From Pempheris klunzingeri (Eukaryota > Chordata > Actinopteri > Acropomatiformes > Pempheridae): a DNA stretch of 64,000 bases. The notes under the pieces are model-generated. The model saw only the letters and a list, made by a program, of their open reading frames with translations. It searched no databases and was not told the DNA's origin. Shown here piece after piece: positions 4,624 through 62,591 of the stretch (position 1 is its first letter; every line of letters begins with the position of its first letter). Both the position numbers and the translations under genes were made by a program. Where the stretch lies: assembly GCF_042242105.1 (NCBI RefSeq), contig NC_092014.1, positions 5,243,874 through 5,307,873 of the forward strand, in the 5' to 3' direction.

Positions 4624-4717
4624 ACATGATATAATATCACTGTAGCATTAACTTTTTACATTTTCCATAAATTTCACCTGAAAGTCGAATATCCCTAACG
4701 TTTTGTGAGTAGTGTAT
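4624..4717. mobile_element. Solo terminal end of a Tc1/mariner-like element
   Basis: This ~94-bp stretch matches the right terminal inverted repeat of the 708-bp element at 51182-51889 nearly base for base, including the outer part ctaac(g/t)ttttgtgagtag and the tgta end. I found no left terminus between 4200 and 4624, so only one end remains. Confidence 0.7.
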
Positions 4718-4844
4718 GTGTGTTAGTTGGTGGGAGAGTTGTGTTTTTTTTTACCTGTTTTCTGCATGTGCAAACTAATCTGAGTCATTGAGGTAGCACA
4801 ATAAAAAGTTCTGCTTGATTTACATTAGTAAGACTTTGCTTTCT

Positions 4845-5094: not shown

Positions 5095-6066
5095 TCAGCA
5101 TTTAGCTCCCGGCTCTTTGCTCCTCTGCCAGTAACTCGTCATCTGTGGGATGCTTGTCGTTGTCACGGCGATCACTTTTGACAGGCTGCAGTCGCTCAGA
5201 GGATGCCGGGGGTCAACGATAAACATATTCTCTTCAGGCGGGTCAGTGGGGGAAATACCCACTCGTTTTAGGCACATACCCAGGTAGGCGTCCTCAATGT
5301 GGATAGGTTTAATCAGAGGAGAGACCCCCAGGAGCTTCGCAGGCAGGTCCGAGGACATGACGTAGGACATGCCCAGAGGATACGGGGGGTACTCTGGCTC
5401 CGCAATCACATCTCTCGGCATGTAGAACTTGTTGAATGGGTTTCTTAAAACCGGGCTGTGCCACCACACCAAACCTGTCATGTAGTTTTGTTTGGCCGTG
5501 CCAGGATCCAGCAACAGTTTCACCAAATTCTGGACATGAAGTAAGACATCAGAGTCAATCTTTATGGCATAGGAAGCCTTGGAACAATGCGCAGTGAGCC
5601 ACTCCAGCATCATCATCGTCTTGATGGTCAGATTGTGGTAGCTGTCCTGGAAGTCACTCTGGATCAAATCGTGGTGCTGCAGGTTCTCCTGTTTGAGCTT
5701 CTCCTGCTGCTGCCCAGCGTCAGCTCCTCCAGGCAGGCCCAGCATGAAGAAAGTCTCCACCAGCTGACCCAGAACCAGTTTCTCACTTCCCCACGTCTTC
5801 CGGATGGCCTCCCGAGCGGCCACGTTGCTGGGTGCAACCGGAACCATCACGACCACGAAAGTCGCGCTCTTACACGCCAACTTGTCATCCATTATGAATT
5901 TGTAGTTCCGCGGATAGGCCACATGATACGGCCCAGGATCCTGAGGTGATGATGGTGCTCTGCTGAAGCCTGAAGTGGCCCAGCGCAGGAGTTTCTCGTC
6001 AAAATTGAGATAGATGAAGATTATCATCGTTCCCAGGCCGCAGAAAAAGATTTTTCTCTTCTCCAT
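5095..6066 (-). CDS. Beta-1,3-galactosyltransferase-like (GT31) protein
   Basis: A 323-residue type II membrane protein of glycosyltransferase family 31. The family transfers galactose (or GlcNAc) from a UDP-sugar in beta-1,3 linkage to glycan acceptors in the Golgi lumen. Residues 5-22 form a hydrophobic signal-anchor after a basic N-terminus. GT31 motifs appear in order: RxxIRxTWG at 85-93, FMLG at 107-110, QSDFxDSYxNLTxKT at 136-150, the metal-binding DSD at 171-173, YPPYPLGMSYVMS at 226-238 and IEDAYLG at 257-263. An N-glycosylation site (NLT) lies at 145-147. The coding part sits in one exon, usual for b3galt genes. A strong acceptor (tttctgtgtag) ends 5 bases before the ATG, so a non-coding 5' exon is expected. 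A related gene lies 6.6 kb upstream in the same orientation. I cannot tell which b3galt subtype this is or confirm the acceptor sugar. Confidence 0.9.
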   Translation of the reverse strand: MEKRKIFFCGLGTMIIFIYLNFDEKLLRWATSGFSRAPSSPQDPGPYHVAYPRNYKFIMDDKLACKSATFVVVMVPVAPSNVAAREAIRKTWGSEKLVLGQLVETFFMLGLPGGADAGQQQEKLKQENLQHHDLIQSDFQDSYHNLTIKTMMMLEWLTAHCSKASYAIKIDSDVLLHVQNLVKLLLDPGTAKQNYMTGLVWWHSPVLRNPFNKFYMPRDVIAEPEYPPYPLGMSYVMSSDLPAKLLGVSPLIKPIHIEDAYLGMCLKRVGISPTDPPEENMFIVDPRHPLSDCSLSKVIAVTTTSIPQMTSYWQRSKEPGAKC

Positions 6067-6329
6067 TGAAACTACACAGAAAAGAGACTCACGTTATCAC
6101 ACACTTTATTGGCAACAGTGACACACAACTCAACAATCTAGAGGAAAGACGAAAAAGACGCGATTTAATGTTTTGAAAAAGAAATGTTGTCCCCCATCAA
6201 TGTAATCAGTCTCATATTAAATGTTTTGATACTGACACTGATACAACAATATCTTTTACAATCAATCAATACATTCACACCCTTTTTTCCATGCTTTGTC
6301 ATCTATACACAAACAGATGTACAAGAACT

Positions 6330-12703: not shown

Positions 12704-15446
12704 CTAACAAGGTGGTCCAGGCTTCTTTAAGTCTGCCCAGTATTTCACCAAGTTTTGCGAAGACCCAAGGATGTAGGTGATGATCCTGGAGAATTCACAG
12801 CGATCATATCTTGTGTTATAGGTCTTGAACTGGGAGGGATTTGGCGGTGATGTGGGTCCAAGTCCTAACTTTTTTATACACATTCCAATATAAGCATCCT
12901 CTATGTTAAAGGGTTTGATTGATTTTGAGACCTCCACAAATTTCTCTGGAAGGTCGTTGGAGATAATATACCCCATACCCAGAACGTAGGTCGGGTACGT
13001 GGCTTCTGGGTACATCTCCTCAGGGACGTACCACTTGGAGCTCTTCGAACGGATGACCGACCTGCTCCACATGAGCATCCCGGTCAGGTAGTTCAGCTTG
13101 GGAATCCCCGGCTTCTGTAGCATGATCACCAAGTTGTCGATGTTCAGGAACATGTCCGAGTCGATCTTCATGGCGTACGCTGCGGTGGGGCAGCGAGTGG
13201 CCAGCCAGTCCATGATCACCATGGTTTTGATGGTCAGATTGAGATAAGAGTCAATAAAGTCACTCTGGATCAAGTCGTGGTGCTGCTGATTCTCCTGTTT
13301 GAGCTGCTCAGCATCAGCTCCTCTAGACAGGCCCAGCATGAAGAGAGTAAGCACCACCTCGCCCTGAACCAGGCGGTCTCTGCCCCATGTCTGCCGGATG
13401 GCGTCCCGAGCTGCCACGTTCTTTGGTGCCACTGGAACCATCAGGACCAGGAAAGGAGTGTTGTTCTTGCATGCCTCTGTGTTATCCATGATAAAGTGGT
13501 AGTTGCGTGGGTAGGCTTGGTGGTACTGAGTGCCTGTAGGTGGTACAGTAGCGAGTTCTGCAGCTCCAAGGGTTTCATTTGGTTTAACTCTGTGTTTTGG
13601 ATGGATACGAAAAGGAGGAGGTAGATAGACCTGATTGGTCCGATTGAGAAACCTATGGTAGTGGTCTTGGAGTGCAAAGCTCTCCCACCACGAAGGAGAG
13701 TAGCTGGACAGAGTGTAACACAAAGTGAAGAGTACTAGACTAGACAGGAGCAGGAACTGGAACCAGGAGTGTAACAAAGGCTTCTTCTGACAATGCAGGA
13801 TCTCCACAAGTTGTCTAAAAGGACAAGAAAGGCAAAGTTAAAACTGGTGAGAACTTAATTAGGATGTAAACTGTGGAATGTATAATGTTTCAATGGAGTC
13901 AGTGAGTTAGCTGTGGGCTACAATGGGGTGTCTGTATTCATTTACATTTTGGAAAACTGGTACCATTAAAACTATGCTGAGTTTGTTTATAGCAGCTCCT
14001 GTTTGCAATGTATTCTTGTATTGATTACTTTGATACTAAGGAACACTTCAAACTTAATGAATCCTGGGGGATTTATGAACAATTAGTCACAATGGATATA
14101 ATCATGTCCTTGGAAAGCATAAGTCACACTGAATCTAAAAATATCATGTCTGTGTGTTTTTACTTGGAGGAGGAGCACGATTTCTTATGCAAATTGCAAT
14201 CTGCACCAAAGGTTTTTAAAGTACTTTAACTGTCTCCGTGTGCTGGGTGTTGCCACGCCAACTGCTGACTTTGATGGTTAGTGGGCCAAATCATCAGTTC
14301 AAAACTAGAGTAACTAACGTCTCATTGTTTTCAGGATACCAGCATGTACCCCCGTCCCTGACCTTACCCATGCCCCATCCTTTATACTGGGAAAAAAGTC
14401 CTGTTTCTCAGTGATATCTTACTTTACATAAACCTGCTTAATCCCTTCAGAGGTAATTAACATGTGAAATCAAAAACAAGTCAAACTGGAATAAACTGCA
14501 GAACATTTGTTGGGATTTAAAACAAAACAGTAATCTGGAGTCAGGAGGAAGTCTTCTGCTAGCGGAGGAGCTACAACAAAAAAACACTGAACTGTGAAAT
14601 GTAGTGCTACGTCGTCACCTGCAGACTACAAAGATGCATGAAAACAAATTCACTTTTAACAGCAACAAGTCTTTACAGAAACAATGTCCCTCTGTTCTTT
14701 GGACCAACCAAAGAACAGACTGTAGACAAGTTTAATTAGTGCTACTAACACGGAGGAGGATTGTGGAAAGAAATGCTTCTGTTTAATTCTTTTAAGTGCA
14801 ACTTTTCTATGTTTTGAGCAGCGCTCAAAGTTTAAGAGACAGATTAAATGCTCTGGATAGTTGCTTTTATCTCATTTCCATTAATATTAATATTGTTAGG
14901 ATGCTTATCTGAATATGAAAAAACTCTAAATGAACTGTGAATGATGTGAGGGAGATGTTTACATCCTTAAAGCCATAAAGCTAATATCTAATACCCAAGG
15001 GTCCCCAAGTACAGTGACAGAGCTCGGTGACTTCCTACAATCATGTTGCTTTGCTTTGGATCCTTTGACAATGACAGCAGAAAAAACAAAAAAGTTGCTG
15101 CTTTTCTTGGTCTTAACATTAAAGTAGATTTTACAGTTTAGACTGCTGGTCAGACCAAACCTGACATCTGAGCTCTGAGAAACTAGGACCGACTCTGGCC
15201 TTGTCTCGTGTTCATGAAATAAAGAATGAAACTAATTGTTAATTGCAGTCCTAAAGATAAACTTTATTGATCCCACACAGGGACATCTAAGAATAAGAAC
15301 ATACAACCTGCATCACAGGGATGTTGTGATGGTCTCCTCTGTGACAGGCCACTTTAAAGATGGACGGTATTATGTATTAGTGCGCAGGAGGAGGACCGCA
15401 GTGATAAGACCAGGTGAGGCCAAGCAGCCAGCAGGTCACACAGCGG

Positions 15447-23106: not shown

Positions 23107-26100
23107 CTAACTGACAACGGCTGGTTTGAGGAGGAGCGCCCTCGGGGGAACAACCACCCAGGACAAAGAATCACTTCGCCTGGGTCCCACCCCCGCAGAC
23201 AGGTTCAGCACTTCCCCCTCCTCTCCTTCCTCCTCTTCGTCTTCGCCTTCCGTCTCCCTCCCTGCCATCTGTCCCAGAGCTCCCAGCCCTAACATCGATG
23301 CAGCTGAAAGTCCGAAATGTAACAGAGGAGAGTCCGAGAGGCCGAGCGGCCCGATGCCGCTGCCTCTTCCACCCATGGAGAAGAGCGGTGCCCCGTGGTG
23401 ACCCAGGGCTCTGGCATGGCAGAAAGCTGAGAGAGGCAAAGAGGCCCCAAGGCCCCCGAGAAGAGCTGCAGCAGCCCCAGGGATGATGATGTGGGCCCCG
23501 CCTACAGATGGTAGTTCAGCCGCGCTCTGGTTACCCAGCAGACCCAGCCCCATCCCCAGCCTGCTCGGACCACCTTGCTCCTGAGCAACAAAGTGCCCGT
23601 GGGCCTTGATGTGCTTCCTTAGCGAGCTGGGATCTGTGTAGCGCTTCATGCAGCCTGCCATCTTGCAGTAGTAAGGCTTGTCAACGTAGTGGGTGCGAGT
23701 GTGTTTGAAGCGGTCGCTAGAGTTGGAGTAACGCTTGCTGCAGCCTTCATAAGGGCAGATGTAGGGTTTTTCTCCTAGAGGAGGACAAAAGAAAGCAGAG
23801 GGAGAATTAATAAATAACTTGATTACAGTATAAATACAAATAGAGCCAGAAAAGGCTGGTTTAATGGGTTTCACTGCAGGTGTAAGAGAATAAAACATTT
23901 TGTAACTTATGATGCTCTGTTACTTCATTTTAATTTAAATTAACATTGTAATCAAAGGCCCTCAGAAATTGTCTGACCAGTAAAACCATTGTTTTATCCA
24001 TACAAAATGGATTTCGCTAATTTGTTTATGCTGTGTCATTGCTTTACACAGACTTTAGAGTGGTGCATCAGCAGTTTGGTGCCACACTCCCATAAAGAAC
24101 AGAAAGAAGTACAGAAGACAGAAAAAGAGATAACAGATAACCCTGTGACTTTTTATTTGGGGTCATCTTTAGAAACACAAAAGACACAGATGGCCTTACA
24201 AATCTGTTCTCACACATGACAAGCAAAAACTTAGCTTAATTTTGTACCTTTTTGTACCTACACACGGGGGAAAAAACAAAATAACACTGCAGTTTACCAT
24301 GAGTTTACCATTTGAGAGCAAGATTACATTAAGACGGCCATTCATAATGTTCAGTTTCCTTCTGTTGCACAAACTACTGCACCCCCTCCCACTGTATGCT
24401 TCACCCTGAGATCATAACTGAGAGAGGGGGAGGCCAGTGACCCCTTAACAAATGCATGACTCGAAGTTCTTCCCTTTTTAGAGGAGTAAGATGTACTGTC
24501 TAGTATACACCGACCGGAATAACAGGTAACTATAGACCCAGTTTCCAATTTAAATCCTTGATGATGAGGACACGACATAGCAAACATTCAAGCCCACGTC
24601 AATGGGCACAATTTCACAAGGCCATATTGTTATAAGTTATCCCACCTTGTGAAACTTTGTATTTGCACAAGCTTTGTGTGCTGTGTAAAGGTTCTTCATT
24701 CATTGGTATGAAAGGACTTCATTACTTCTCGTCATTATCAGGAGCTGTCAAAGGCTAGCAGATCCTGTTCATGCTGCGTTGCATGCCTTATTGATGTCAT
24801 TGTTGAAATATAATTTAAAGCGATCAAGAAACACCTATAGGGCTGGTGGAAAAGATGACGCACATAGGCTACTGATAAAGAACAGGTAGGGAGCCATGTT
24901 TTCTGTAGACGTCAGAGGACTGATAACAATCAGAATAAAACGTAACAATAGAGCGAGTGAAGTGAAGGCTTTCTGCTGTTTGTGAGAATCCCTCTACTGC
25001 AGGTTGGCAGAAAACCAAAATAAAGTCTTATGATGATGAGTCTTTGAATTTGTATTACTTTTGGGGCCTTTTGGAAACAGACGCTTATCCAAACCAAGAT
25101 AAAGTCTTTACATTGAAAAAGACCAGAGGGTCGATTTGCACCCAGATGCAAAGAACCAGACGGCTTTTTGGCTATTTACACCCAGGAAAATGGAGTTCAA
25201 ATCCTGTGTGAACAGAAAATTATATCATTCTATTAGTAGACTTACTTAATATATATTTACTTGTATTTCAGTTTTCTTTTATTATCAGTTTTGAGTCACA
25301 GTTTGGTTAGGTTCAGGCACCAAAACTATTTGGTTATGTTTAGGGAAAAAAAATCATGGTTTACATTAAGATAATAAGTCAACTACTTTTCAAGTTATCT
25401 TTCATAACAACTTCACTATACTTTTCTGTCTTTGGAACATTATTTCAGGGACCTCACAAGGTGACATTGTATTGAAACTGTTCAATCTTCTTTGGGATGA
25501 ATTGCCTTGTTGAAAATAATTCCAGTTTTTCGGTGCGCGCCCAGTGATCCATCTTAACTTGTCTGGTTGGAGATACAGAAACAAGACTGTCAACAAAGTG
25601 CATTGTCTCTCCTCCATCTGGCAGAGTACTTTCATATCTTCAAAACATCACTAAGGCCAAATAAGGCAAAATGACTTGTTAAGACTTGTTTATCCCAGTC
25701 TCAGTATTTGTTTGTTTCATTTGATTTTTCTCTGCAGTTTAAAATGAAAGACCAGACTCCTGATTCACGCTTGTTTAAAAAAACACAGAGATAATTATGT
25801 CAGACAAAAGCCATGTGGTGTCTAACAGCAAGAACGTAGCTACAACTCAACTCAAAGTGATGAGTTGTGTAAAACGCTGATAAGCAGGAGTGAAGACGGG
25901 AAACGGTGAACTGACCCTGGCAGCCCCCGAGGGAATCAAACACAATACACTATATGCACGTAGGCTACAATAGAGCCAGATTCTTCCTCTTCTGGGCTCA
26001 CATGACAGTCACAGTACATGACTACTATAAAAACTAAACTATTTGTTCTTTAAGAGATGTGCATTTGTTTGAACGTTTCAGAAGTGCATCACTTTTTATG

Positions 26101-35750: not shown

Positions 35751-36448
35751 AATAGTTTGACATTTGGGGAATTATGCCCCTTCACTTTCTTGCCAACAGT
35801 TACAGGAGAAGACTGATAATGTGACGTTTCTACAGGCGACCAGCAAAGACTCCAGGGAGCTTCTTTGTCCACCTGTTGGTCGCCAAAAATAACGATACAA
35901 CATGTACACTTTAAAAAAGAGAGACCCAATGTGTTAATTGCTAAGCTTTAGAGGTGTTGGTACATACATGTAGGTGTATACTATACCTTGGAAAAGCCAG
36001 GTTGGCTGTTTTCTCCTGTCTTTACGGTAAAATAATCTAACATAATATAAAGTAAGATAAACCCAGTCTTTAAACTAAGCTGAGGTAAACTCTTTATGAG
36101 AAGTCATCCTTGACTTTAGGGTCTATTGCTTCCTCGTGTATGTATACGCTATGACTCATGACTTTTTAATAATCTTCTCCTTATTCTCTTCTTTCTGTCC
36201 TTGAATCTGGTGAATTAAATAAAAAGGGTAAAATTGAAAAGACAGAATCTGAAGTTTCTTAAATCTTCTCCTGTCTTTACGGTAAAATAATCTAAGCTAA
36301 TATAAAGTAAGATAAACCCAGTCTTTAAACTAATCACCAGCTTGTTCTAGCTCCATACTTAACACACAGATGTAAGGGTCTCATGGAAGTTATCTAACTT
36401 TACATCAAGAAGGCAAATAGACATATTTCCCAAAATGTCAAACTATTC
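35751..36448. mobile_element. TIR (MITE-like) element, internally rearranged
   Basis: The left end aatagtttgacatttgggga and the right end (reverse complement aatagtttgacattttggga) form terminal inverted repeats of about 25 bp. The interior carries a 67-bp direct duplication and a 181-bp block shared with 38783-38963. No transposase frame is present. Fragments of the same family occur at 18361 and 54299. Confidence 0.7.
36087..36267 (+). repeat. 181-bp perfect duplicate (copy 1)
   Basis: By eye identical at every base to 38783-38963, in direct orientation, 2.7 kb away. It lies inside the TIR element, between two copies of a 67-bp element segment. Confidence 0.9.
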
Positions 36449-38782: not shown

Positions 38783-38963
38783 AAACTCTTTATGAGAAGT
38801 CATCCTTGACTTTAGGGTCTATTGCTTCCTCGTGTATGTATACGCTATGACTCATGACTTTTTAATAATCTTCTCCTTATTCTCTTCTTTCTGTCCTTGA
38901 ATCTGGTGAATTAAATAAAAAGGGTAAAATTGAAAAGACAGAATCTGAAGTTTCTTAAATCTT
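38783..38963 (+). repeat. 181-bp perfect duplicate (copy 2)
   Basis: Identical to 36087-36267. The flanks differ on both sides. It is not within the TIR element here, so this may be the source copy. Confidence 0.9.
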
Positions 38964-50790: not shown

Positions 50791-53360
50791 ATGTTGTTGG
50801 CAGAAGTTGGATGTGTGTTCATGGGTTTCATCCTGTGCAGCTCAGGTATTAATGATTATTACTTTATATCCATTACATATTCCTGTTAATAACTGATATT
50901 AATATAATTGATAGTTGATTGTAATTGATAGATGTTTTTACTTGAGTTTATTGAGTTACTAAAGCTAAAGCTAAAGTTAATTATGTTACTATTTTAACCT
51001 GCATTAACACCTTAAAGAACATTGTGTAAAAAAATCAGTCCTCTCTAAGATTTTTATCACAGATCAATATGGAATATTAGGATGAGAATCAGGTTTGCTG
51101 CAAAGGGAGGTTTCACAATAAAAGGAATTTATAGAAATAGAAGTAAAAACAAAACAAGAACCGCAAGTCAAGAAACATACCTACACTCCTCACAAAAAGT
51201 TAGGGATATTCAGCTTTCAGGTGAAATTTCAGGATGAACCTAAAATGCATTCGAACCTTTCCAGGTGAACTTAATGTGACCTTCTCTAAACTTTTGAATG
51301 CACATGTCCAACTGTTAAGTGTCTCAGTACTTTCTGCACAAGTTGCTGTTCTCTAACAAGAAGCTTAACAGCAACATTCACAACAGGTTTGATCCATGAA
51401 TCCACCAATACATTTCCTGCTTCAGTTAGAATTGGTATTTAAACAGTCCTCCTCATCATGCTGTTCACATTCTGACATCATGAGACCAAGACGACACCTA
51501 ACAGTTGATCAGCAGCACCTCAACACTGGAGGCTTCAAACAGGAAGTCCTCAGACGGAGGTGTTCACTGAGCTTAGAGGGTCACAGAGTGTCATCAGGAG
51601 GTTGGAACAGTGATACAGAGACTGGAAGAGTCACAGAAAGGAGAGGAGTGGACGTCCTTTGGCCACATCCCAATTTATTGAGACACTGAACATGTTTTGT
51701 TGTGGTATACCTACCACCGTTGTTAGATTTTCTTCAAATAAATTGTTTAAGATGAATAAAACTACCATTGCATGCTTCTACTTAAATGCCCTACTTTCAT
51801 GATATAATATCACTGTAGCATTCACTTTTTACATTTTCCATATATTTCACCTGAAAGTCGAATATCCCTAACTTTTTGTGAGTAGTGTATAAAAATAATT
51901 TACAGTATGAAAAATAGATGTAGAATAGATGTGCAATTTGTTTTTTAAAAGAAATGAAAAAGCTGTAACATTTGTGCAAAATATTGAACATAGAATGTAT
52001 GAAGTATATTACTAAGCAATAGAAAGGCATGTGTTTTTCAAATTGTTGTCTTCTCTTAAAGGGCTTCACAGACAAGCAAACAGCATCTGTGCTTTAAAAG
52101 GTTCATCAGTGGATCTGTCCTGCACAGCTGAACATCCCACTTCAGGCATGAAATGGTACACTGTACACTGGGATGAATACGAAATTGTTCACAAAGAGAT
52201 CTCTGCAGACGGAAGTCGTGCATCGTACAACATGTCTGAAGAGAGTAACTTCACTCTAACGATCAACGACCTAAGAGAGAGTGATGCAAACATTTACAGC
52301 TGCAGAGACAGTACAGCTAGATTGGAAAACTCCTGGGTCAGAAGAATTCAGCTCCATGTTGCAGGTACAGTGGCTGCCTTTGTTACTTACAAAGAATCGG
52401 ATCATTTTATGAGATTTGATTTTGTCATGACATCGTGTCAGACCTGCAGGTGAAGGTGATTCCTTCCACAGAGGGACTGACAGTAACACTGATGTGCAGC
52501 ACCAGCTGTCCTCTGACTGAAAACCCTGCAGCCTACATCTGGTACAAGAACAGACAGTTTCTCTATCAGGACTGGTCTCCCTGGTACCAGCAGCTGGTCA
52601 GCAGTGAGGAGGCAGCCACATACTCCTGTGCTGTCAGAGGCTACGAGGATCTCAGAGCCCCTGAAGTCTCCGTGGGTGAGTCACAACGTTATGCATCTTA
52701 TGTAACAAAAAACTAAGCCTGTGAAAAACTGTGACTAAAAATGCAAAAATGCCGTATTTCTGTCCAGATTCTGTCACATCGAGCTGCTTCAGTGTGACCT
52801 ATGCTAAAGGGAGGATGTGTTCATATAAGCAGACATCAGAGGATGAACCCTGCTCCATCACATATCCAACAGGTTACTTTTTACACAAACACAAGCACAA
52901 CTCCTGGAACCCCTCACCCCACACCAAAGATATGCCAACTTCACCCAGGACAGCTGTACACTGTGTGTGTGTACAGATGTAATGATAATACATACTAATA
53001 CTAACAAATATCAGACCTAGTTAATCAGCCAGTTCTGGTTATATCTTTGCCTTCTTTAAAAATGACAACAACAAAAAACACACACACAATTACCATCATT
53101 AACATTCTGCATTTTTTTTCAAACTATCTCTCAACAGAGGTACATGTTCAACAGACACCTTCAGAGGGATACATCACACTGAACTGTGCCACCAGCTGTC
53201 CTCTGACTGATCCTCAAACCACCTATAGGTGGTACCAGAACGGGCAATTATACACACATGTTAATAGTCAACATTATTTAGTTTCCCCCTCCGTGAATAG
53301 ACTTTCCTGCGCTGTAAATGGCCACGAGGATCTGCTCTCTGCTCAATCCTGTGAGTATGA

Positions 53361-53450
<90 letters not shown>

Positions 53451-55421
53451 TACTGCAAATATCCTGATGTTTTTTGTGTATTATCTGCTCATATCCAAAT
53501 GATGCATTCATATTCACTTGCATCCCTAATACCTGCACACTCGGTTATGCCATAGTTACAATGGCATTATGTAGAGGATGTTTTTAAAGAGTTAATTTAA
53601 TAGTTAGTTTTTACAATTTACTGCAGCAGTCAAATGAACATTCATCCATTCTGCCAAAATCACTTTGCGGTCAGTCTTGTCAGTTAATATCTACGCTTAA
53701 GTCTTAACATCAATCAAGTATCTTTCTGTTTTTCATCTATATTTCAGGTGCTGAGGCGCAGAGGTGCTGGAGTGTGAATTATGTCAGAAGGAGAATCTGT
53801 GCTCTGCGAGGGTCCTCGGTGAACATTTCCAGTGAATACTCATATACCAACAGCTTGCCGCTCAGGTCTAAAACATGGTATAAAAGAAAGAGAAATGCCA
53901 AGGCGGATGCTGAAGAGCTGATTCAGGCTGCAGGTCGTGTGCAGTTTAATGACGAGGCGAAGAACCAACACATCCTGAGAATTGAAAATCTGCAGAGGAC
54001 AGACTCTGCAGAATATGCATTCAGACTCCTGACAGTTGAAGGAACTCCAAGACAGTCTGATTTACCTGGAGTGACTTTGGTTGTGACAGGTAATTCTTTA
54101 GAATAATGAATGGAGAGTTTGTCGCTCCCTCTCTGTGTATTTGCAGCAGTAAGAGTGGCTAAAATGAACTCAACACCACCTCAAAATTATAGGTTTTTTC
54201 CTTGTTGGATACACAGTATACACAGAGACAGTAATGTTGGTTCAGCTGGGTATTTCAAGCTAGGGGAAAACACAGGCCTGCTGTCAGTGGGTGTTAAAGG
54301 AATAGTTCAACAATTTGGGAAATATGCTCAATCGAATCCCGGCAGAGAGTTACATGAGGAGATTGATACCACTCTCATGTCTGTCCATAACATAGAAATT
54401 TACATCAAGTAACTCACAGAATTAACCGGCCACACCTGACATTGTTAGCGCTCCTCTCGTCCCATTGAAGAGCACTGGCTGGCAGAATCCGTGTATTTTG
54501 CCAGCCTGGTTGTCAGAAGAGAGTCAATCTCAGGCGTGACCAAACCATTTTTGTCACTCACATAGTCCAATGTGCTGAATGCTCGCAGTGTATGTATGTG
54601 AGGTGGACAAAACCCAGTTGAGTACAGTAAAGGAAGGGTAAGGTTGATTATTATATATGCCTCTATAAGTAAGCAATCTAACCATGTTTCAGGTCTGAAA
54701 GTGACGTTCACTCCCTCTTCAGTGGTGTCAGAAGGCCAGAGAGTCACAGTGACCTGCAGTACCAGCTGTCCTCTCACCCACAACACAAACTACATCTGGA
54801 GCTTGAACGGTCGACCTCTGAACCTGCAAGAGACCCAAAACAAACACCTGGTTCTGGATCCAGTCGGCAGTCAGCATGCAGGAAACTACGTCTGTGCTGT
54901 CGAAACCCACAAACAACTCAACATCAGCTCATATGAAAGGACTCTCATTGTTGAAGGTGGGCATAGTTTTTCATTTTTACTCAAGTGTTTTAAGGTAATA
55001 GAAGTACACTTTAATTTCAGTTTTAGAGTGTGTCCGACCAGTAACAAATCTTATACCCATCCCTTTCCAGCTATGTGGAAAACTACGGCAATAATAAATG
55101 CAGTAAGACTGATAGTTGCATTACTGATCCCAATTCCTCTACTTGTCTTCCACCTGTGGATGAGGTAAAAGTTTAGATGTACTTCCTGTCATCAATGTTG
55201 TCTTTCTGCTTTGTTGAGTAACAATAATAATTTTGCACTGTCTGACCAAAACAAAACCAGGAAGACACTGACCTCCACCACTGCGCCTAATGACAAAGGT
55301 GAAAGGTGAGCACAGAATCTGAAGGCTAGAAACCTAATGTGTGTGTGTGTGTGTGTGTGTGTGCGTTTCTGTGTCATCATCTCTGCTTTCTGTGCTCTGC
55401 AGATCAACTCGTTATATTTGA
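50791..55421 (+). CDS. CD22/sialoadhesin-like Ig-superfamily receptor, copy A (Ig-A)
   Basis: A predicted 557-residue type I receptor from ten exons: 50791-50845, 52062-52364, 52442-52675, 52768-52872, 53138-53350, 53748-54089, 54693-54956, 55071-55164, 55261-55305 and 55403-55421. Junctions are GT-AG, and extracellular exons are all phase 1-1. Order: signal (1-19), V-like with SCTAEHP...YSC, C2 with MCSTSC...YSCAV, a 35-residue V-remnant exon, C2 with NCATSC...LSCAV, V-like (305-417), C2 with TCSTSC...YVCAV, and a membrane segment at about 513-536. The tail is short and has no ITIM. In the second V-like domain the B-strand Cys is Ser (NISSEYS; NISCDYS in copy B) and the F-strand YxC is YAF. 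The start is placed by analogy with copy B; an in-frame ATG exists at 50641. Its closest recalled relatives are teleost CD22-like genes. Ligand unknown. Confidence 0.8.
51182..51889. mobile_element. Tc1/mariner-like non-autonomous element in Ig-A intron 1
   Basis: 708 bp with ~45-bp terminal inverted repeats. The left end is tacactcctcacaaaaagtt; the right end is its near reverse complement, ending agtagtgta. TA dinucleotides lie at the ends. A short frame inside (51480-51689) resembles the helix-turn-helix start of a Tc1-like transposase. The rest of the transposase is missing, so the element is internally deleted. Confidence 0.75.
53361..53450. repeat. (ATCT)n microsatellite next to a splice donor
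   Basis: About 22 perfect ATCT units that begin only about 10 bases after the exon 5 donor of Ig-A (gtgagtatga). The homologous intron of Ig-B has the same donor but no repeat. Confidence 0.95.
54299..54415 (+). mobile_element. TIR (MITE-like) element fragment in Ig-A intron 6
   Basis: Starts aaaggaatagttcaacaatt and continues through agagttacatgaggagattg and ataccactctcatgtctgt, matching the family left end at 35751 and 18361. The right end is not clear. Confidence 0.6.
55340..55362. repeat. (GT)n microsatellite in Ig-A intron 9
   Basis: About 11 GT units, 40 bases upstream of the last acceptor of Ig-A. Confidence 0.9.
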
Positions 55422-55694
55422 GCACATCATTCCTGTTCATCAACCCTGTGATCGCAGCAACCAAAGCACCATGTGTCTGACTGGGTTTTTGCTAATTTAC
55501 AACGTCTGTCTTGTTTATCTAGAGCCCTTCTGTTTCTTAGCAAAGATGTGCAACTTGAATAACACAGGATTTACATTCTTTATGTGGACAGAGAAGCTAA
55601 TATTGTTTTGTGTCGTCTGCATGTGTGCATAGGCAGTGCTTAAATGTTAGCCATAACAAGGTAATATTTCTTCTGCTCTCAAGTTTTCAGTACT

Positions 55695-55700
55695 AATAAA
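55695..55700 (+). terminator. Polyadenylation signal of Ig-A
   Basis: AATAAA 274 bases after the Ig-A stop codon. Another AATAAA follows at about 55765. Confidence 0.5.
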
Positions 55701-55721
55701 GCAGCATGAATACTTCACTGT

Positions 55722-58040
55722 AAGGTGTGTTTTAATGATGCTGCTGCTGCATTAACAGTGTGAAAATAAATACAGAAATTTTGCTTTTGAATCACAGTGA
55801 TCACAATGATCACAGATTTTGAGATGCACACACAAAGCAGGTTAAGTGGCTGAAGCTGCTATTTTATTATATTCTGTTCTGTGACTGTTGAGCTCTGGAA
55901 GTATAGAGTGCTGCAGGAATGAGTCCAAAAACCCAGAAATAAGTAAGCATTTGGAACATTTTTGCAGTCCCTTGTCTCAAAGTCAGCGAGTCTTTTTTGG
56001 GTGAATTTTTGGCTTAAGAGATTTTCACATTCTGTTCTCTGACATAAAATAAGTCATTAAATACCCCTCTCTTTAAGTTTGAATCTTTTATGTGTCTTAA
56101 TAGAGGCGGTTGCTAACAAGCGGCTCAGTGAGACTACAGAGGTTGTCGGGGGACGGACACTGATTTAATTACTCCTTTACAGTCGCCAGTTGTTTTTGAT
56201 ACTCACACTCTTGCAGACTATTCTAACTCAACCTTTCCAACTTCATCAATTTATTGTATTTTACAGTCCTAGCTTTTTCAAATGCCATGTAGTTTATTGG
56301 TGGTGAATTAGAAGTGTCACCACTACCGGCAATGATGTCACAGTGTCCTGAAGCGCACTGTGCATGTGTGCGGCGAGGGAAAGAGTTAAACTGCTGGAGG
56401 TCAGCAAAAACAGGATTTTCAAGGGGTGTCGAGCTGCTCACTGCAAACTTATAAAACACTCTCACTTAGTTCACCGCTTAAAGTACTCAATACATCTCCA
56501 TCTAGTGGCGGTAGAAATAAAGTCAGGGGATCACTAAAATCTTTAGTTATGAGAACTATGAATGTCCGCACCAGATTGGATCACATCCAATAGTTTTTGA
56601 TATTTCACTCACATTTTGGTGTACCAGATACTGCCATCCACAGAGCCTTACTTTTCTAAAGCTATGGCAGAGAGGCCTTCAGTTTTAGATTACTTCATTT
56701 GCACTGTATTGCCCAGTCAATACACCAATTACCAATATGCTGCACATTAATGAGCTGAAGACTTGATATACAAACACTCTCCATAAATGAATCCCACCAT
56801 TTAAGTTCTTACATTAATTGTACTGCACTGTGACTGTGAGCTGTGCCCCTCTGGTGGGATTGAGATCCATTCAGTTTCTCTCACTGACTTTCTCTAGTGG
56901 TTTAAGTGGGGACCTACAATTGGAGTTATGGAGAACCAGCTCAGTCTGACTACTTAACTGTTTTTATCACAACACCTTATAACCTTTTACTTTATATGAC
57001 TGTGAAAACATTGAAATGTGCACAACAAATGATATTGCATTAAAACTGATCTGACCTAAGCACAAATTTTGGTTAGTTGATGTGGGTTATTAGAATCAAC
57101 CAAAAGATAAATGGAAAATTTAAATAGATTATCGGTCTATTAAAAAGGCATTGTGACACTTTACAATGAGAATGGCATGACAAGATTACAACAAAAACGT
57201 TGTGGTTGTTCTTGTCACAGAAATATATAGAAATATAGTGAGAACATGTAGTCTAGATACATACAGAGATACTGGAAGAAAATCAAACATGTTGGACATT
57301 TTCACAGCCAATTGCTGTAATATTCAGAAGACAATTTCTAAGTCTAAAGTCTGTGAATTTATGAGAAAAAAAAACTGAATTCAACCTTGTAGACTCGGGC
57401 AGTAAAGGGAATGCACGGTTGTGAAGATGGTGATTCTGGTCTAAAAACATGAGTATTTCCTTATTGCTAAATCTGACTACAAAGTATAATTTGATGAGGC
57501 ATAAAACATGGCAAGTGGCGGCATCTGGTATGAGGAGGTTGATCCAGCCTTGCCGTGTGAATCAATGTGGTTTCTTAATAAAAAAGAAAACAAAATTACA
57601 GGTTTTTCTCATAAATTTGTAACTTTAATGTCAGAGAATGTGTTTTTTGGGGTTGTTTTTTGTTTTTTTTTACAGATTTATGACTTTACAATCTCAGAGA
57701 ATGAAAACAAATTTGTTTTTCTCATAAATGTGTCAGTTTGTGTCTTACATAACTTTATGACAGCAAACAGATGGCTTCACATGAACTTTTAAGAGATCAG
57801 TTGGGTTACATCCACAGCTTCCGCCTCTTATTGCTGCACCACAAACCAACAGGAAATAAGACTTCCTTTACTTACCTATACTGACTCTGCTCTCACTCTG
57901 ATAATTCTGATAACATCATGCCACAGTTTAATACTTGTGTAAATATGTTAAAGGTCAAAATGTGAGCAGATAAAAGTCATAACTGCCTTTAGAGGGAATC
58001 AAGATTTTTTCCTGCAAAACATTAAACAAATGTTGTTTTT
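55722..58040. other. Intergenic between Ig-A and Ig-B
   Basis: No exon was recognised. It carries family C repeat copy 2 (56500-56660). AT-rich otherwise. Confidence 0.6.
56500..56660 (+). repeat. Dispersed repeat, family C (copy 2)
   Basis: Contains gtcaggggatcactaaaatc, actatgaatgtcc, tttttgatattt and a 'actgccatccac' end, parallel to 22395-22545. Confidence 0.55.
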
Positions 58041-58041
58041 A

Positions 58042-58130
58042 TTAGATTCAACTTTATTGTCAATGCTCAGAGTGCAAGCACTGAGAGAACAAACTGCAGA
58101 GATGCTCCGAGATACTTGTAGAGGATTTCA
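58042..58130 (+). mobile_element. Short retroposon-like fragment upstream of Ig-B
   Basis: Begins ttagattcaactttattgtc followed by aatgctcagagtgcaagcac, a common teleost interspersed sequence. It lies about 200 bases before the Ig-B start. Confidence 0.5.
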
Positions 58131-58333
58131 GAATCAGTTGATCACTGAGAGAGGAAGGAAGAGACATTTGGATCTCAGAGCTGCAGGGTGTTTGTCCACC
58201 TCCCTCTGACCAACAGGCCACTCTGTCCTCTTCAGCCTCTCTTATAAGACTACCCTCAGTTTTTTGACAGGTGAGAGGCAGAAATAATCAAATAAAACAT
58301 TTTCTGATTAGAAACTAAGGGACTGCAGCAGCC

Positions 58334-61300
58334 ATGCTTTATGCTGGATGTGTTTTTCTGGATTTAATCCTCTACATCTCAGGTAAGATTTATTATTTAC
58401 TTCTTATACAATTCTAAACTATAATCACTATATGTATGGTTATACGTGTGATTATTAACTGTAATCTGTTAAAAACAAAGGAGTGGATGAAATCTTTTAT
58501 ATGAGGGGAAGAGTTAAACTATGTCAACTAAAAAGTGAACACACTTTACAAACATTTTAAAGAAAACATTGCATATCCTACTACTGGATGGAGCTCTTCA
58601 AATTTCCTTATGTACTGTATATCATACTGTCATGATTAGTAAACATCAAATATTTAAATGGTATCAATTTGTCCAGATGTTTGCTAATATTATCTTCTGT
58701 TTAAGGGGTTCATGGACAAGCAAACAGCATCTGTGCCTTAAAAGGTTCATCAGTGGATCTGCCCTGCTCGGCTGAACATCCCACTTCAACCATGAAATGG
58801 TACACTGTGCACAGGAATGCCTCCACGTATGTTCATGATAAGATTTCTGCAAATGGAGGTCGAGTATCGAACAACATGTCTGAAGAGAGCAACTACACGC
58901 TAACAATTAATGATCTGAAAGAGAGCGATGCAAAATTTTACTGCTGCAGAGAAACTGACGACCCAGAGCCCTGCTGGCACAACGGAACTGAGCTCTATGT
59001 TACAGGTACAGTGGCTGCCACATAACTATCACTTTAAGACTGACTTTAGAATATGACTTCTTATTTTATTCACCATCATGTCAGACCTGCAGGTGAAGGT
59101 GATTCCTTCCACAGAGGGACAGACAGTAACACTGATGTGCAGCACCAGCTGTCCTCTGACTGGAAACCCTGCAGCCTACATCTGGTACAAGAACAGACAG
59201 TTTCTCTATCAGGACTGGTCTCCCTGGTACCAGCAGCTGGTCAGCAGTGAGGAGGCAGCCACATACTCCTGTGCTGTCAGAGGCTACGAGGATCTCAGAG
59301 CCCCTGAAGTCTCCGTGGGTGAGTCACGTTAAGAAACCTCTTGCCCACCTAACATGTTATACTTTGAACAAAAGCTCAAACATTCATCTGAAACTTGACC
59401 AAAATGCTAAATCCTATGCTTTTGTCCAGATTCTGTCACATCGAGCTGCTTCAGTGTGACCTATGCTAAAGGGAGGATGTGTTCATATAAGCAGAAATCA
59501 GAGGATGAACCCTGCACCATCACATATCCAACAGGTTAGATTGCTCTAAACATATTGTATATATTGTACATACTTTTTGTTGTACATACTTTTTTATGTG
59601 TATATCTCTGTCCACTAGTTTATCATTTATTGCTTTTCTATTTCTGCTGCGCTCTTACTTCTCTTCTCTCACCAAATATATCTCAGTGACTGTGTATCAA
59701 TCTTCTCCCAACAGAGGTATATGTTCAAAGGACTGTGGAGAACTATGTCACACTGACTTGTGCCACCAACTGTCTTCTGACTGACCCTCAAGCTGCCTAT
59801 AGGTGGTACTTGAACAACCACTTACACAGTTCCTGTGAGAGTCAAGACATTACAGTTTTTAAGTCCTCTTCTGAATCCGCCTCTTGTGCTGTAAAAGGTC
59901 ACGAAGATCTGCATTCTGATGAATACTGTGAGTATGAGCCAACTTATCTTCTCATTTTCGCTTGTGGAATAGAGCATTTGTATCATTATCTGCATCCCAC
60001 ACGGGCAGTAAGAAAACTAATAATTTGAATAATGTTACCACCATATAAACATTGTGTATTACTACCAGTCTACATTATGCCACGAAATACTACAAGAAAA
60101 TGTAAATATACATAAGATTTTGTATTAAAAAAAATAGAGTCTGGTTAAAATGTAAATATAGATGTTACTAAAAAGTATTTAATTATTCTTTTCAGGTGTT
60201 AATGAAATGAAATGCTCGAGTGTGAATTATGTCAGCAGGAGGATCTGCGCCCTAGAGGGCGCCTCTGTGAACATTAGCTGTGACTACTCGGATCCCAACA
60301 GCAGGTTTTCCTATCAGAAATTATGGAATAAAGTAAACGGACATGATGAGGAGGACGCTGAAGAGATGATTGAGGCTGCAGGTCGCGTGGAGTATCATGA
60401 CGACATAAAAAAACACCACATACTGGCACTCCACAACCTGATGAAGAATGACTCAGGGGAATACAAATTCAGTGTCCACAGAATTAGCAAAAGTTGGAGA
60501 CTGTCTGATTTAGCAAGAGTGACTTTGATTGTTACAGGTAATACTTCAGTTTAAGTACCTGAATATTTTTCAGTAGGGAATCTGTTGCTCTTGCTTCATG
60601 AGATAACACTTGCTACATAGGACAGAAAAATTATCTAAAGGTGGCATGCTTCCAAAAAATGTTTTCTCCTTCTATCCCCATGATAACTGTGCCTCAGATT
60701 AATCCATCAGAGTGTTTAACCAACAGTAAATTACATTAATTTATTTGTTAACTTACATATTTCAGTTTTCTTTTAATATTATTATTATTATTATTATTAT
60801 TATCAGTTTTCAGTGGCAGTTTGGTTAGGTTTAGGGGGGAAAAGGATCATTATTTGGGTTAGAATAACAAATCAAATGCATATATAAAAGGCAGTGTACA
60901 TTAAACACAAAATATCTTCTTTCCAACACAAACCCTGGTGTAAATAGCCACATTGCTTGTTTACACCCAGGTGCAAATAGTGTTGTTGACTACTTACACC
61001 TTGGTGCATAACATCTGCCTGTATCTATTCTCTCCCTGGAGTCCCAAAAACCTTTAAGTTTTTACAAAATGATGTAGCAATTACCTGTCAAGTGTTGTAG
61101 TTCATTATAAAATTATCTCAGTGCAATTGATATATTGTTAACTTTAAGAAATGTAAGAATTTGTAATAGGTCCTTGTTCTGCCTAAATATTGCATATTGT
61201 AAGACATCATATCTGATGGACACAAGTACACATGGTCGTGTATTTTCTATTGTGTTATAAAATATCCAATGCTAAATGGACTGTATATTGAGCTTTAACA

Positions 61301-62591
61301 CATTCACACATGAAGGATCTAATTGGATATTAGGAGAGTGTTCATTCACACTATAAGCAATGCTTTGGGAGCTCTCTGGGGTTCAGTGTGTTTACAGGAG
61401 TTGAGGATTGAACTGCCAATCTTCTGATTAGTGGGCGACCTGGTTTACTCTCTGAGCTAATAGGCACACACAAGCTTAGACAGGACATCTTTCGTGTTAA
61501 TTGATCTATGAAACCAATTTCCAGGCCTGAAAGTGACAATGACTCCCTCTTCAGTGGTGACAGAAGGCCAGAGAGCCACACTGACCTGCAGTACCAGCTG
61601 TCCTCTGCCCCACAACACAAACTACATCTGGTACTTGAACGGACGACCTCTGAACCTGCAACAGAACCAAAAAAAAAACCTGGTTCTGGACCCAGTCGGC
61701 AGTCAGCATGCAGGAAACTACTCCTGTGCTGTTGAAAGTCCCCAAAACATCAGCTCACACGAAAGAACTCTCAAAGTCAAACGTGAGCACAGCTTTAAAT
61801 TTTCATACAGTAACAGTTGTTTTGAAGCATGTTTACCATTGAAACTCAATCAAATGTCTCAATTTTTTTAATTCTCTGTGACATGTGTTGCATTAGTCAC
61901 CCATTCTTAATCTAATTTTGATTAAATGCATATCAATATAACTGTGTTCCCCTGTACAAAAAGACCCATGCCTTGTTAGAAGGAAAGTGAAGCCACAGTA
62001 AAGGCAGCAGGCAGACACTTTCAGTCCAGAGGATTGTGGAGATGAGGATTGAAGTACAGGGTCAAAGCCTTCAAGATACATTACTTACTTTCTTTGTATT
62101 GTTTTGAAATATGTTGCACTGATGACTCACATCTCCATCAATCTCTCTCCAGCTCGAGGGAAATCAGTGATGATAGGGAACGCAGTCAAACTGACTCTTT
62201 TATTGCTGATCCCGTCTGCTGCGTTTCTACTCTACCTAAAGATGAGGTAAATGACCGAATGAGAAAATCTGCTATTTCCATGATCGTACTCTCGTTTCCT
62301 GCATTCAAAGGCTTCTTGCTGACTTGATAAGTCTGTTATTAACATTAGTGATTTCATAATATGACCAATAAAATCCAGGAAGAAGAAAACTCTGCCTTCC
62401 ACCGCAGAGCTAAATGACAGAGTACAAACCGGACAGGTGAGTAGAAAACATGTTAGAAATGATAGAAATGACTGTTTCTGTTTTCTGTTCATCTGTCACC
62501 TGCTCTTTCTGCACATCAGGCGGACTCTGTGTATGAGAGCATCGCACTCGTAGCCACGACTCCCACACCAAACCAGGACCACACAGTGTAA
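58334..62591 (+). CDS. CD22/sialoadhesin-like Ig-superfamily receptor with ITIM-like tail, copy B (Ig-B)
   Basis: A predicted 574-residue type I receptor from ten exons: 58334-58382, 58706-59005, 59085-59318, 59430-59534, 59715-59927, 60196-60537, 61525-61782, 62153-62246, 62379-62436 and 62520-62591. All junctions are GT-AG with consistent phase. The layout equals Ig-A: signal, V-like (18-116), C2 (118-194), V-remnant (196-229), C2 (231-300), V-like (302-414), C2 (416-500), membrane segment about 508-529, and a basic RKKK stop-transfer. The last exon encodes S-V-Y-E-S-I (Tyr556), which fits the ITIM consensus [ILVS]xYxx[ILV]. ITIMs recruit SHP-type phosphatases, so an inhibitory leukocyte receptor is the likely role by family. 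The second V-like domain keeps the B-strand Cys but has YKF where YxC is expected, as in siglec-type V domains. Exons 3-6 and 8 are the same length as in Ig-A. Ligand unknown. Confidence 0.85.
60755..60960 (+). repeat. Dispersed repeat, family D (copy 2), with (TTA)n
   Basis: Contains cagttttcttttaatatt, a (TTA)n run at about 60778-60803, cagtttggttaggtttaggg and later tttacacccaggtg. It matches the repeat at 25060-25400 and lies in Ig-B intron 6. Confidence 0.6.

Follow-up and report, generated by a model that had tools for sequence, protein, structure and literature searches.

A candidate pair of CD22-like receptor genes in Pempheris klunzingeri with differing tails, a common basic membrane motif and two near-identical exons

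Two immunoglobulin (Ig) receptor genes, Ig-A and Ig-B, lie head-to-tail on the same strand of the fish Pempheris klunzingeri, and they raise the question of whether the products of a duplication have come to signal in different ways and, if so, how the copy without an inhibitory tail could act. The window analysed here is a stretch of 64,000 nucleotides (nt) of contig NC_092014.1 (assembly GCF_042242105.1, positions 5,243,874 to 5,307,873 of the forward strand); positions below are those of the window, and features lie on its plus strand unless stated otherwise. A first-pass annotation, made from the letters of the window, had described a tandem Ig receptor pair at this place, and spliced models with ten matching exons in each gene and GT-AG borders in all 18 introns confirm it. 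Ig-A extends from its ATG to its stop at 50791..55421 (557 amino acids, no internal stop), with a tail devoid of an immunoreceptor tyrosine-based inhibitory motif (ITIM), and Ig-B, at 58334..62591 (574 amino acids), has a tail carrying the string SVYESI. The exon phases match up to exon 9, and the two proteins share 370 of 551 aligned residues (67% identity). The common domain layout, the common N-x-x-[RK] motif of the membrane segment, the ITIM-like tail of Ig-B alone, and the near-identity of exons 3 and 4 can all be seen in the sequence. Similar extracellular regions joined to differing signalling parts are one mark of paired receptors, along with shared expression and ligand, and both parts of this mark are found here, the difference in signalling itself being what the tails would predict. 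We therefore hold, with moderate confidence, that Ig-A and Ig-B arose by duplication as CD22-like leukocyte receptors which would now signal differently, and that they most likely make up a duo of paired receptors whose kind is already known. In such a duo, Ig-A would reach the cell surface and activate through an adaptor bearing an immunoreceptor tyrosine-based activation motif (ITAM), such as FcR-gamma, held by the arginine of its membrane segment. Ig-B would recruit phosphatases via SVYESI, with a membrane lysine that may in addition hold an adaptor. Both receptors would see related ligands, with gene conversion in exons 3 and 4 preserving their likeness.

The difference between the tails arises in the last two exons. 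Exon 9 of Ig-A (55261..55305, 45 nt) is, as the first-pass annotation had it, 13 nt shorter than that of Ig-B (62379..62436, 58 nt), and in the alignment this deficit is made up of a 6-nt and a 7-nt gap, of which only the latter moves the frame. Exon 10 of Ig-B (62520..62591) reads ADSVYESIAL in the spliced model, and the coding part of the Ig-A exon (55403..55421) ends, again as had been described, after five residues (STRYI-stop). Because the 7-nt gap alone shifts the frame, the Ig-A frame homologous to that of Ig-B is phase 0, which goes unused and reads INSLYLSTSF. The proposal that the tyrosine position of Ig-A would be phenylalanine is not borne out, since phase 0 (NSLYLST) keeps the tyrosine codon and has threonine at +3. 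An alternative donor at 55298 does give the string VIFEHI on which the proposal was built, but this string was rejected as the homologous frame: its offset of 2 matches 15 of 36 bases, against 19 of 36 at offset 0. The ungapped match at offset 0 has a P of about 1e-4 (20,000 single-base shuffles, that offset only), and when 72 bases are compared at 17 offsets, the three that score best (0, 6 and 2) are nearly tied with 28, 27 and 27 matches, so that homology at the far end of the exon is weak. Donors were scored on a 9-base consensus, on which the 18 donors of both models range from 6 to 9. The main donor of Ig-A exon 9, at 55305, scores 8/9, and the one at 55298 scores 7/9, which makes it weaker yet possible, as it falls within that range.

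Phase 0 of Ig-A exon 10 is reached by a single tested combination, through a poor GC donor at 55282. None of the 64 local combinations of donors, acceptors, exon skipping and intron retention gives Ig-A a string resembling an ITIM or an immunoreceptor tyrosine-based switch motif (ITSM), that is, [ILVST]xYxx[LIV], and a hidden ITIM supplied by local alternative splicing was rejected on this result. RNA structure around exon 9 was also discarded, the fold being weaker than those of shuffled sequences (z +1.69). The canonical Ig-A tail has one tyrosine (RYI-stop), which stands outside any motif. Thus, the earlier view that Ig-A is without a signalling tyrosine stands as regards the motif, which no combination restores, but not as regards the residue, which occurs once in the canonical tail and is also kept as a codon in phase 0. 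The tail motif of Ig-A was most likely lost through the 7-nt frameshift in exon 9 together with the change at +3, on the presumption that Ig-A is the copy that changed. SVYESI of Ig-B had been taken for a fitting ITIM, and it is indeed present in exon 10, but it satisfies two published definitions, (I/L/V/S)xYxx(L/V) (PMC2832619) and L/VxYxxV/S/I/L (PMC3601082), only when their allowed residues are pooled, and neither of them alone. Serine at -2 is allowed by PMC2832619 and not by PMC3601082, and isoleucine at +3 is allowed by PMC3601082 and not by PMC2832619. Inhibition by Ig-B through SVYESI is therefore plausible, but not secure, as the motif is single and meets the two definitions only when they are combined.

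The membrane segments, both encoded by exon 8, suggest how the partner without the motif might signal. They read AIINAVRLIVALLIPIPLLVF in Ig-A (55071..55164; best 21-residue hydropathy window, mean 2.43) and VMIGNAVKLTLLLLIPSAAFL in Ig-B (62153..62246; mean 1.88 in the corresponding window), and near the outer membrane end of each a basic residue stands three positions past an asparagine, as NAVR in Ig-A and NAVK in Ig-B. The Ig-A segment had 0 matches among PDB sequences. NxxR is a published signature of FcR-gamma-coupled receptors, and of two Xenopus NxxR receptors tested with FcR-gamma, one depends on it to reach the cell surface and the other was raised two-fold only (PMC2413239). A stimulatory catfish receptor with a membrane lysine associates with adaptors (PMC4810170), and the CHIR-AB and TILR-AB receptors of birds, which have both a membrane charge and ITIMs, are termed bifunctional, or AB type (PMC3601082, PMC6760009). 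Ig-A has the marks of the FcR-gamma-coupled type, namely an NxxR placed N-terminally in the membrane segment and a short tail without motifs, and because its arginine stands in this published signature, it looks adaptor-dependent and activating rather than a decoy. Ig-B resembles a bifunctional receptor and not a plain inhibitory one, since lysine in NAVK together with an ITIM-like motif is the combination known from the bird bifunctional receptors. The earlier picture of an inhibitory receptor paired with a decoy or adaptor-dependent partner thus holds for the pairing of an inhibitory-type gene with an ITIM-less one, with NAVR favouring the adaptor option, but it has to be amended in that Ig-B carries NAVK as well.

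The extracellular likeness of the two genes is greatest in exons 3 and 4. The C2-like exon 3 (52442..52675 in Ig-A, 59085..59318 in Ig-B) is identical at 232 of 234 positions (99%) and the short exon 4 (52768..52872 and 59430..59534) at 103 of 105 (98%), and all four differences are nonsynonymous. Synonymous divergence (dS) is 0 in these exons compared with 0.479 in exons 1, 2 and 5-9, among which identity is lowest in exon 8 (59/92) and highest in exon 7 (226/258). Over the 1637 aligned sites of exons 1-9, the longest run without a difference spans 221 bases, where none of 5000 permutations gave more than 58, and outside exons 3 and 4 the longest run is 30 bases, in exon 7 (P 0.04). Purifying selection alone was rejected as the cause of this near-identity, as no synonymous difference occurs over about 75 synonymous sites, a judgement made without a formal test. 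Exon 7 (54693-54956 in Ig-A, 61525-61782 in Ig-B) itself has a dS of 0.176, lower than the 0.479 of exons 1, 2 and 5-9 together, perhaps owing to an older or partial conversion.

Intron 3, which separates the two homogenised exons, has diverged. It measures 92 nt in Ig-A (52676..52767) and 111 nt in Ig-B, with 53/92 identities and 19 gap columns in a global alignment, and high identity ends no more than about twelve bases from the edges of exons 3 and 4. When intron interiors, trimmed by 12 bases at each end, were compared with shuffles, P was 0.008 for intron 3, 0.001 for intron 9 and 0.14 for each of introns 2 and 4. The interior of intron 3 is thus modestly better than shuffled sequence and, like intron 9, has kept some old homology, but without the near-identity of the exons that flank it. 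Two near-identical exons around a diverged intron imply that there were two short conversions or else that the template was spliced. A spliced template would explain why exons 3 and 4 are almost the same while intron 3 kept its old divergence, and it is a tentative, rather improbable suggestion that both exons were homogenised jointly in this way (by mRNA or cDNA) and that both receptors may also dock an ITAM adaptor, with inhibition coming from the tail alone. The alternative is a pair of separate conversions at the DNA level, each limited to one exon.

The family to which the pair belongs was judged from its domains. By eye, and exon by exon, both genes have a signal peptide (exon 1), a V-set domain (exon 2), a C2-like domain (exon 3), the short exon 4, a further C2-like domain (exon 5), an Ig_CD22-like domain (exon 6), a third C2-like domain (exon 7), the membrane segment (exon 8) and the tail (exons 9 and 10). 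The Pfam V-set profile has its best stretch at residues 31-118 of Ig-A, in exon 2 (52062..52364), and at residues 29-116 of Ig-B, and further Ig_2 and Ig_3 stretches occur in both; an N-terminal V-set domain followed by C2-set domains is the layout of the CD22/Siglec family. Ig_CD22, the profile of the CD22-type first domain, falls in both genes on part of exon 6 and not on the N-terminal domain, scoring 27.2 bits (cut-off 27) over 28/121 profile positions in Ig-A (53748..54089) and 24.4 bits, under the cut-off, in Ig-B (60196..60537). Siglecs have a conserved arginine in the F strand for sialic acid, and the putative F-strand site of exon 6 reads EYAFR in Ig-A and EYKFS in Ig-B in an alignment of the two exons. 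With full-length Ig-B as the query, the best PDB chain was CD22 d6-d7 (expect value, E, 4.8e-12). 'CD22-like' is thus the best label for both genes, though an unproven one, because Ig_CD22 stands only at or below its cut-off and the PDB matches of exon 6 express no preference for Siglecs. The short exon 4 (CFSVTYAKGRMC...) resembles by eye the start of exon 6 (CWSVNYVRRRICA...), and is perhaps the remnant stub of a lost V-type domain.

Other accounts of the pair turn on what became of Ig-A. It might be a decoy, that is, a surface receptor that does not signal and only competes for ligand, as its short tail without motifs would allow, but a basic residue within a membrane helix is costly in the absence of an adaptor partner, and we consider this account unlikely. 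The match of the Ig-A membrane motif to the published adaptor-coupling signature (PMC2413239) also counts against it. It is likewise doubtful that Ig-A is a decaying copy on its way to a pseudogene, with exons 3 and 4 refreshed by conversion. The frame change in exon 9, the lack of any usable tail motif, and a serine in place of a cysteine in exon 6 are in keeping with decay, and outside exons 3 and 4 the ratio of nonsynonymous to synonymous divergence (dN/dS) is 0.59 (bootstrap 0.45-0.77), which is not low. Nevertheless, exons 1-8 of Ig-A contain neither a stop nor a frameshift, its splice sites are canonical throughout, and the upstream and leader regions of the two genes can be aligned, whereas a neutral copy at a dS of 0.479 would be expected to hold many stops, about 15 by a rough estimate. 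The Ig-A transcript might also differ from the model, so that an undetected downstream exon or another donor supplies a signalling tail. Exons that encode tails are short and difficult to predict, the donor at 55298 scores within the range of the models, and a pattern search of the 2.9 kb downstream of Ig-A gave a raw count of 15 ITIM- or ITSM-like strings, one of them across a stop. Against this stand the good acceptor of exon 10, the AATAAA signal downstream at 55695 and the lack of a motif in all the local combinations, and we regard such a transcript as very improbable.

Several findings weigh against the favoured interpretation of Ig-A and Ig-B as a CD22-like duo with divided signalling. 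The homogenised domain is C2-like, whereas the ligand-binding domain of Siglecs is a V-set domain; among exons 1-9 similarity is lowest in exon 8, which encodes the membrane motif; and the tail motif of Ig-B is one borderline ITIM. The dN/dS value of 0.59, which also counts among the evidence for the duo, is pairwise and could come mostly or solely from Ig-B. Searched alone against PDB, Ig-A exon 6 returned 46 sequences, the best being shark V-NAR (E 0.0082), with no Siglec among the matches listed, and Ig-B exon 6 returned 28 sequences, led by pIgR (E 8.4e-05), with Siglec-8 fourth (E 0.017). The serine of Ig-A exon 6 is aligned with a B-strand-like cysteine of Ig-B, and this speaks against the function of Ig-A as well. 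In addition, the link between NxxR and FcR-gamma has been established in other families, and the charged membrane residue of catfish LITR 2.6b is not required for adaptor binding (PMC4810170).

The nearest named relatives, set beside Ig-A and Ig-B by description only, are CD22 of the Nile tilapia and the CD22 paralogues of the Atlantic salmon (PMC12837193, PMC6362898). With teleost CD22-like and Siglec-like receptors the pair has in common V-set and C2 domains, similarity to Ig_CD22 and, in Ig-B, a tail with a tyrosine motif. Tilapia CD22 is described as having two IgV domains and one IgC2 domain, eight exons and an ITSM-like motif (PMC12837193), whereas Ig-A and Ig-B have ten coding exons, a greater number of them for Ig domains, and a basic motif in the membrane segment. 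Siglec-11/Siglec-16 and the CEACAM1-type pairs would resemble Ig-A and Ig-B in uniting inhibitory and activating partners whose extracellular exons have been homogenised by gene conversion. In Siglec-11 and Siglec-16, gene conversion has recurred over a longer region, which includes the first exons and is not described as exon-bounded, and has kept the two genes alike (PMC5701461). In CEACAM pairs the N-domain exon is the most similar, with a similarity that barely reaches the flanking introns; apart from an opossum pair and a canine pair, homogenisation is thus bounded by the exon in most of the CEACAM pairs examined (PMC2832619). The homogenised tract of the Siglec and CEACAM pairs takes in the ligand-binding V or N domain, whereas that of Ig-A and Ig-B is the C2-like exon 3 and the short exon 4.

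As regards the membrane segment, the FcR-gamma-coupled NxxR receptors (the Xenopus XFL TM1 type, LILRA2, PIR-A, NKp46, GPVI, OSCAR and Fc-alpha-R) have N-x-x-R near the outer end, as Ig-A does, and the Xenopus TM1 cDNAs likewise encode a short tail (PMC2413239), but these receptors differ from Ig-A in their Ig domains, and adaptor binding by Ig-A is putative. The bird CHIR-AB and TILR-AB receptors are similar to Ig-B in having a membrane charge and an ITIM-like tail (PMC3601082, PMC6760009), but TILR-AB and CHIR-AB1 have one Ig domain, as opposed to several in Ig-B, and two ITIMs (PMC3601082), as opposed to one borderline motif. Two paired CD22-like receptors whose membrane segments bear NxxR or NxxK were not found in titles and abstract openings among the matches listed, which covered few subscription journals, and novelty is not implied.

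No third paralogue was found in the window, where tblastn gave only three matches outside the locus (E 2.1 to 8.9), and a scan of the genome contigs with Ig-B gave 68 pattern matches, none of which was confirmed as a relative. Intron 1 is 1216 nt long in Ig-A and 323 nt in Ig-B. Within the former, a stretch of about 700 nt (51182-51889) with 53-nt terminal inverted repeats, 89% complementary, is DNA transposon-like and would explain most of the difference; related pieces occur at 4625-4752. In the surroundings, 6 of 96 open frames were scanned against Pfam, and 3 had matches. Two long open frames on the minus strand, at 5098-6093 and 12707-13837, match Galactosyl_T (E 8.5e-46 and 1.7e-50) and have DNA blocks that are 70% and 81% identical between them, forming a tandem galactosyltransferase-like pair, presumably of the beta-1,3 type. 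A third frame, also on the minus strand (23107-23919), encodes C2H2 zinc fingers and may be GLIS-like. A direct repeat of 181 nt, 100% identical, is present at 36087-36267 and 38783-38963, 2.7 kb apart. A sigma-70 promoter scan was discarded as meaningless for a vertebrate gene.

If the favoured interpretation is true, the pairing known from mammalian Siglecs and CEACAMs, in which an inhibitory and an activating partner have exons kept alike by conversion, would extend to a CD22-like fish locus with the two genes side by side, and to this would be added a membrane motif of the adaptor-coupling type in both partners. Because its homogenisation follows the exon borders on both sides of a diverged intron, the locus is also a clean case in which a spliced template can be set against two short DNA tracts.

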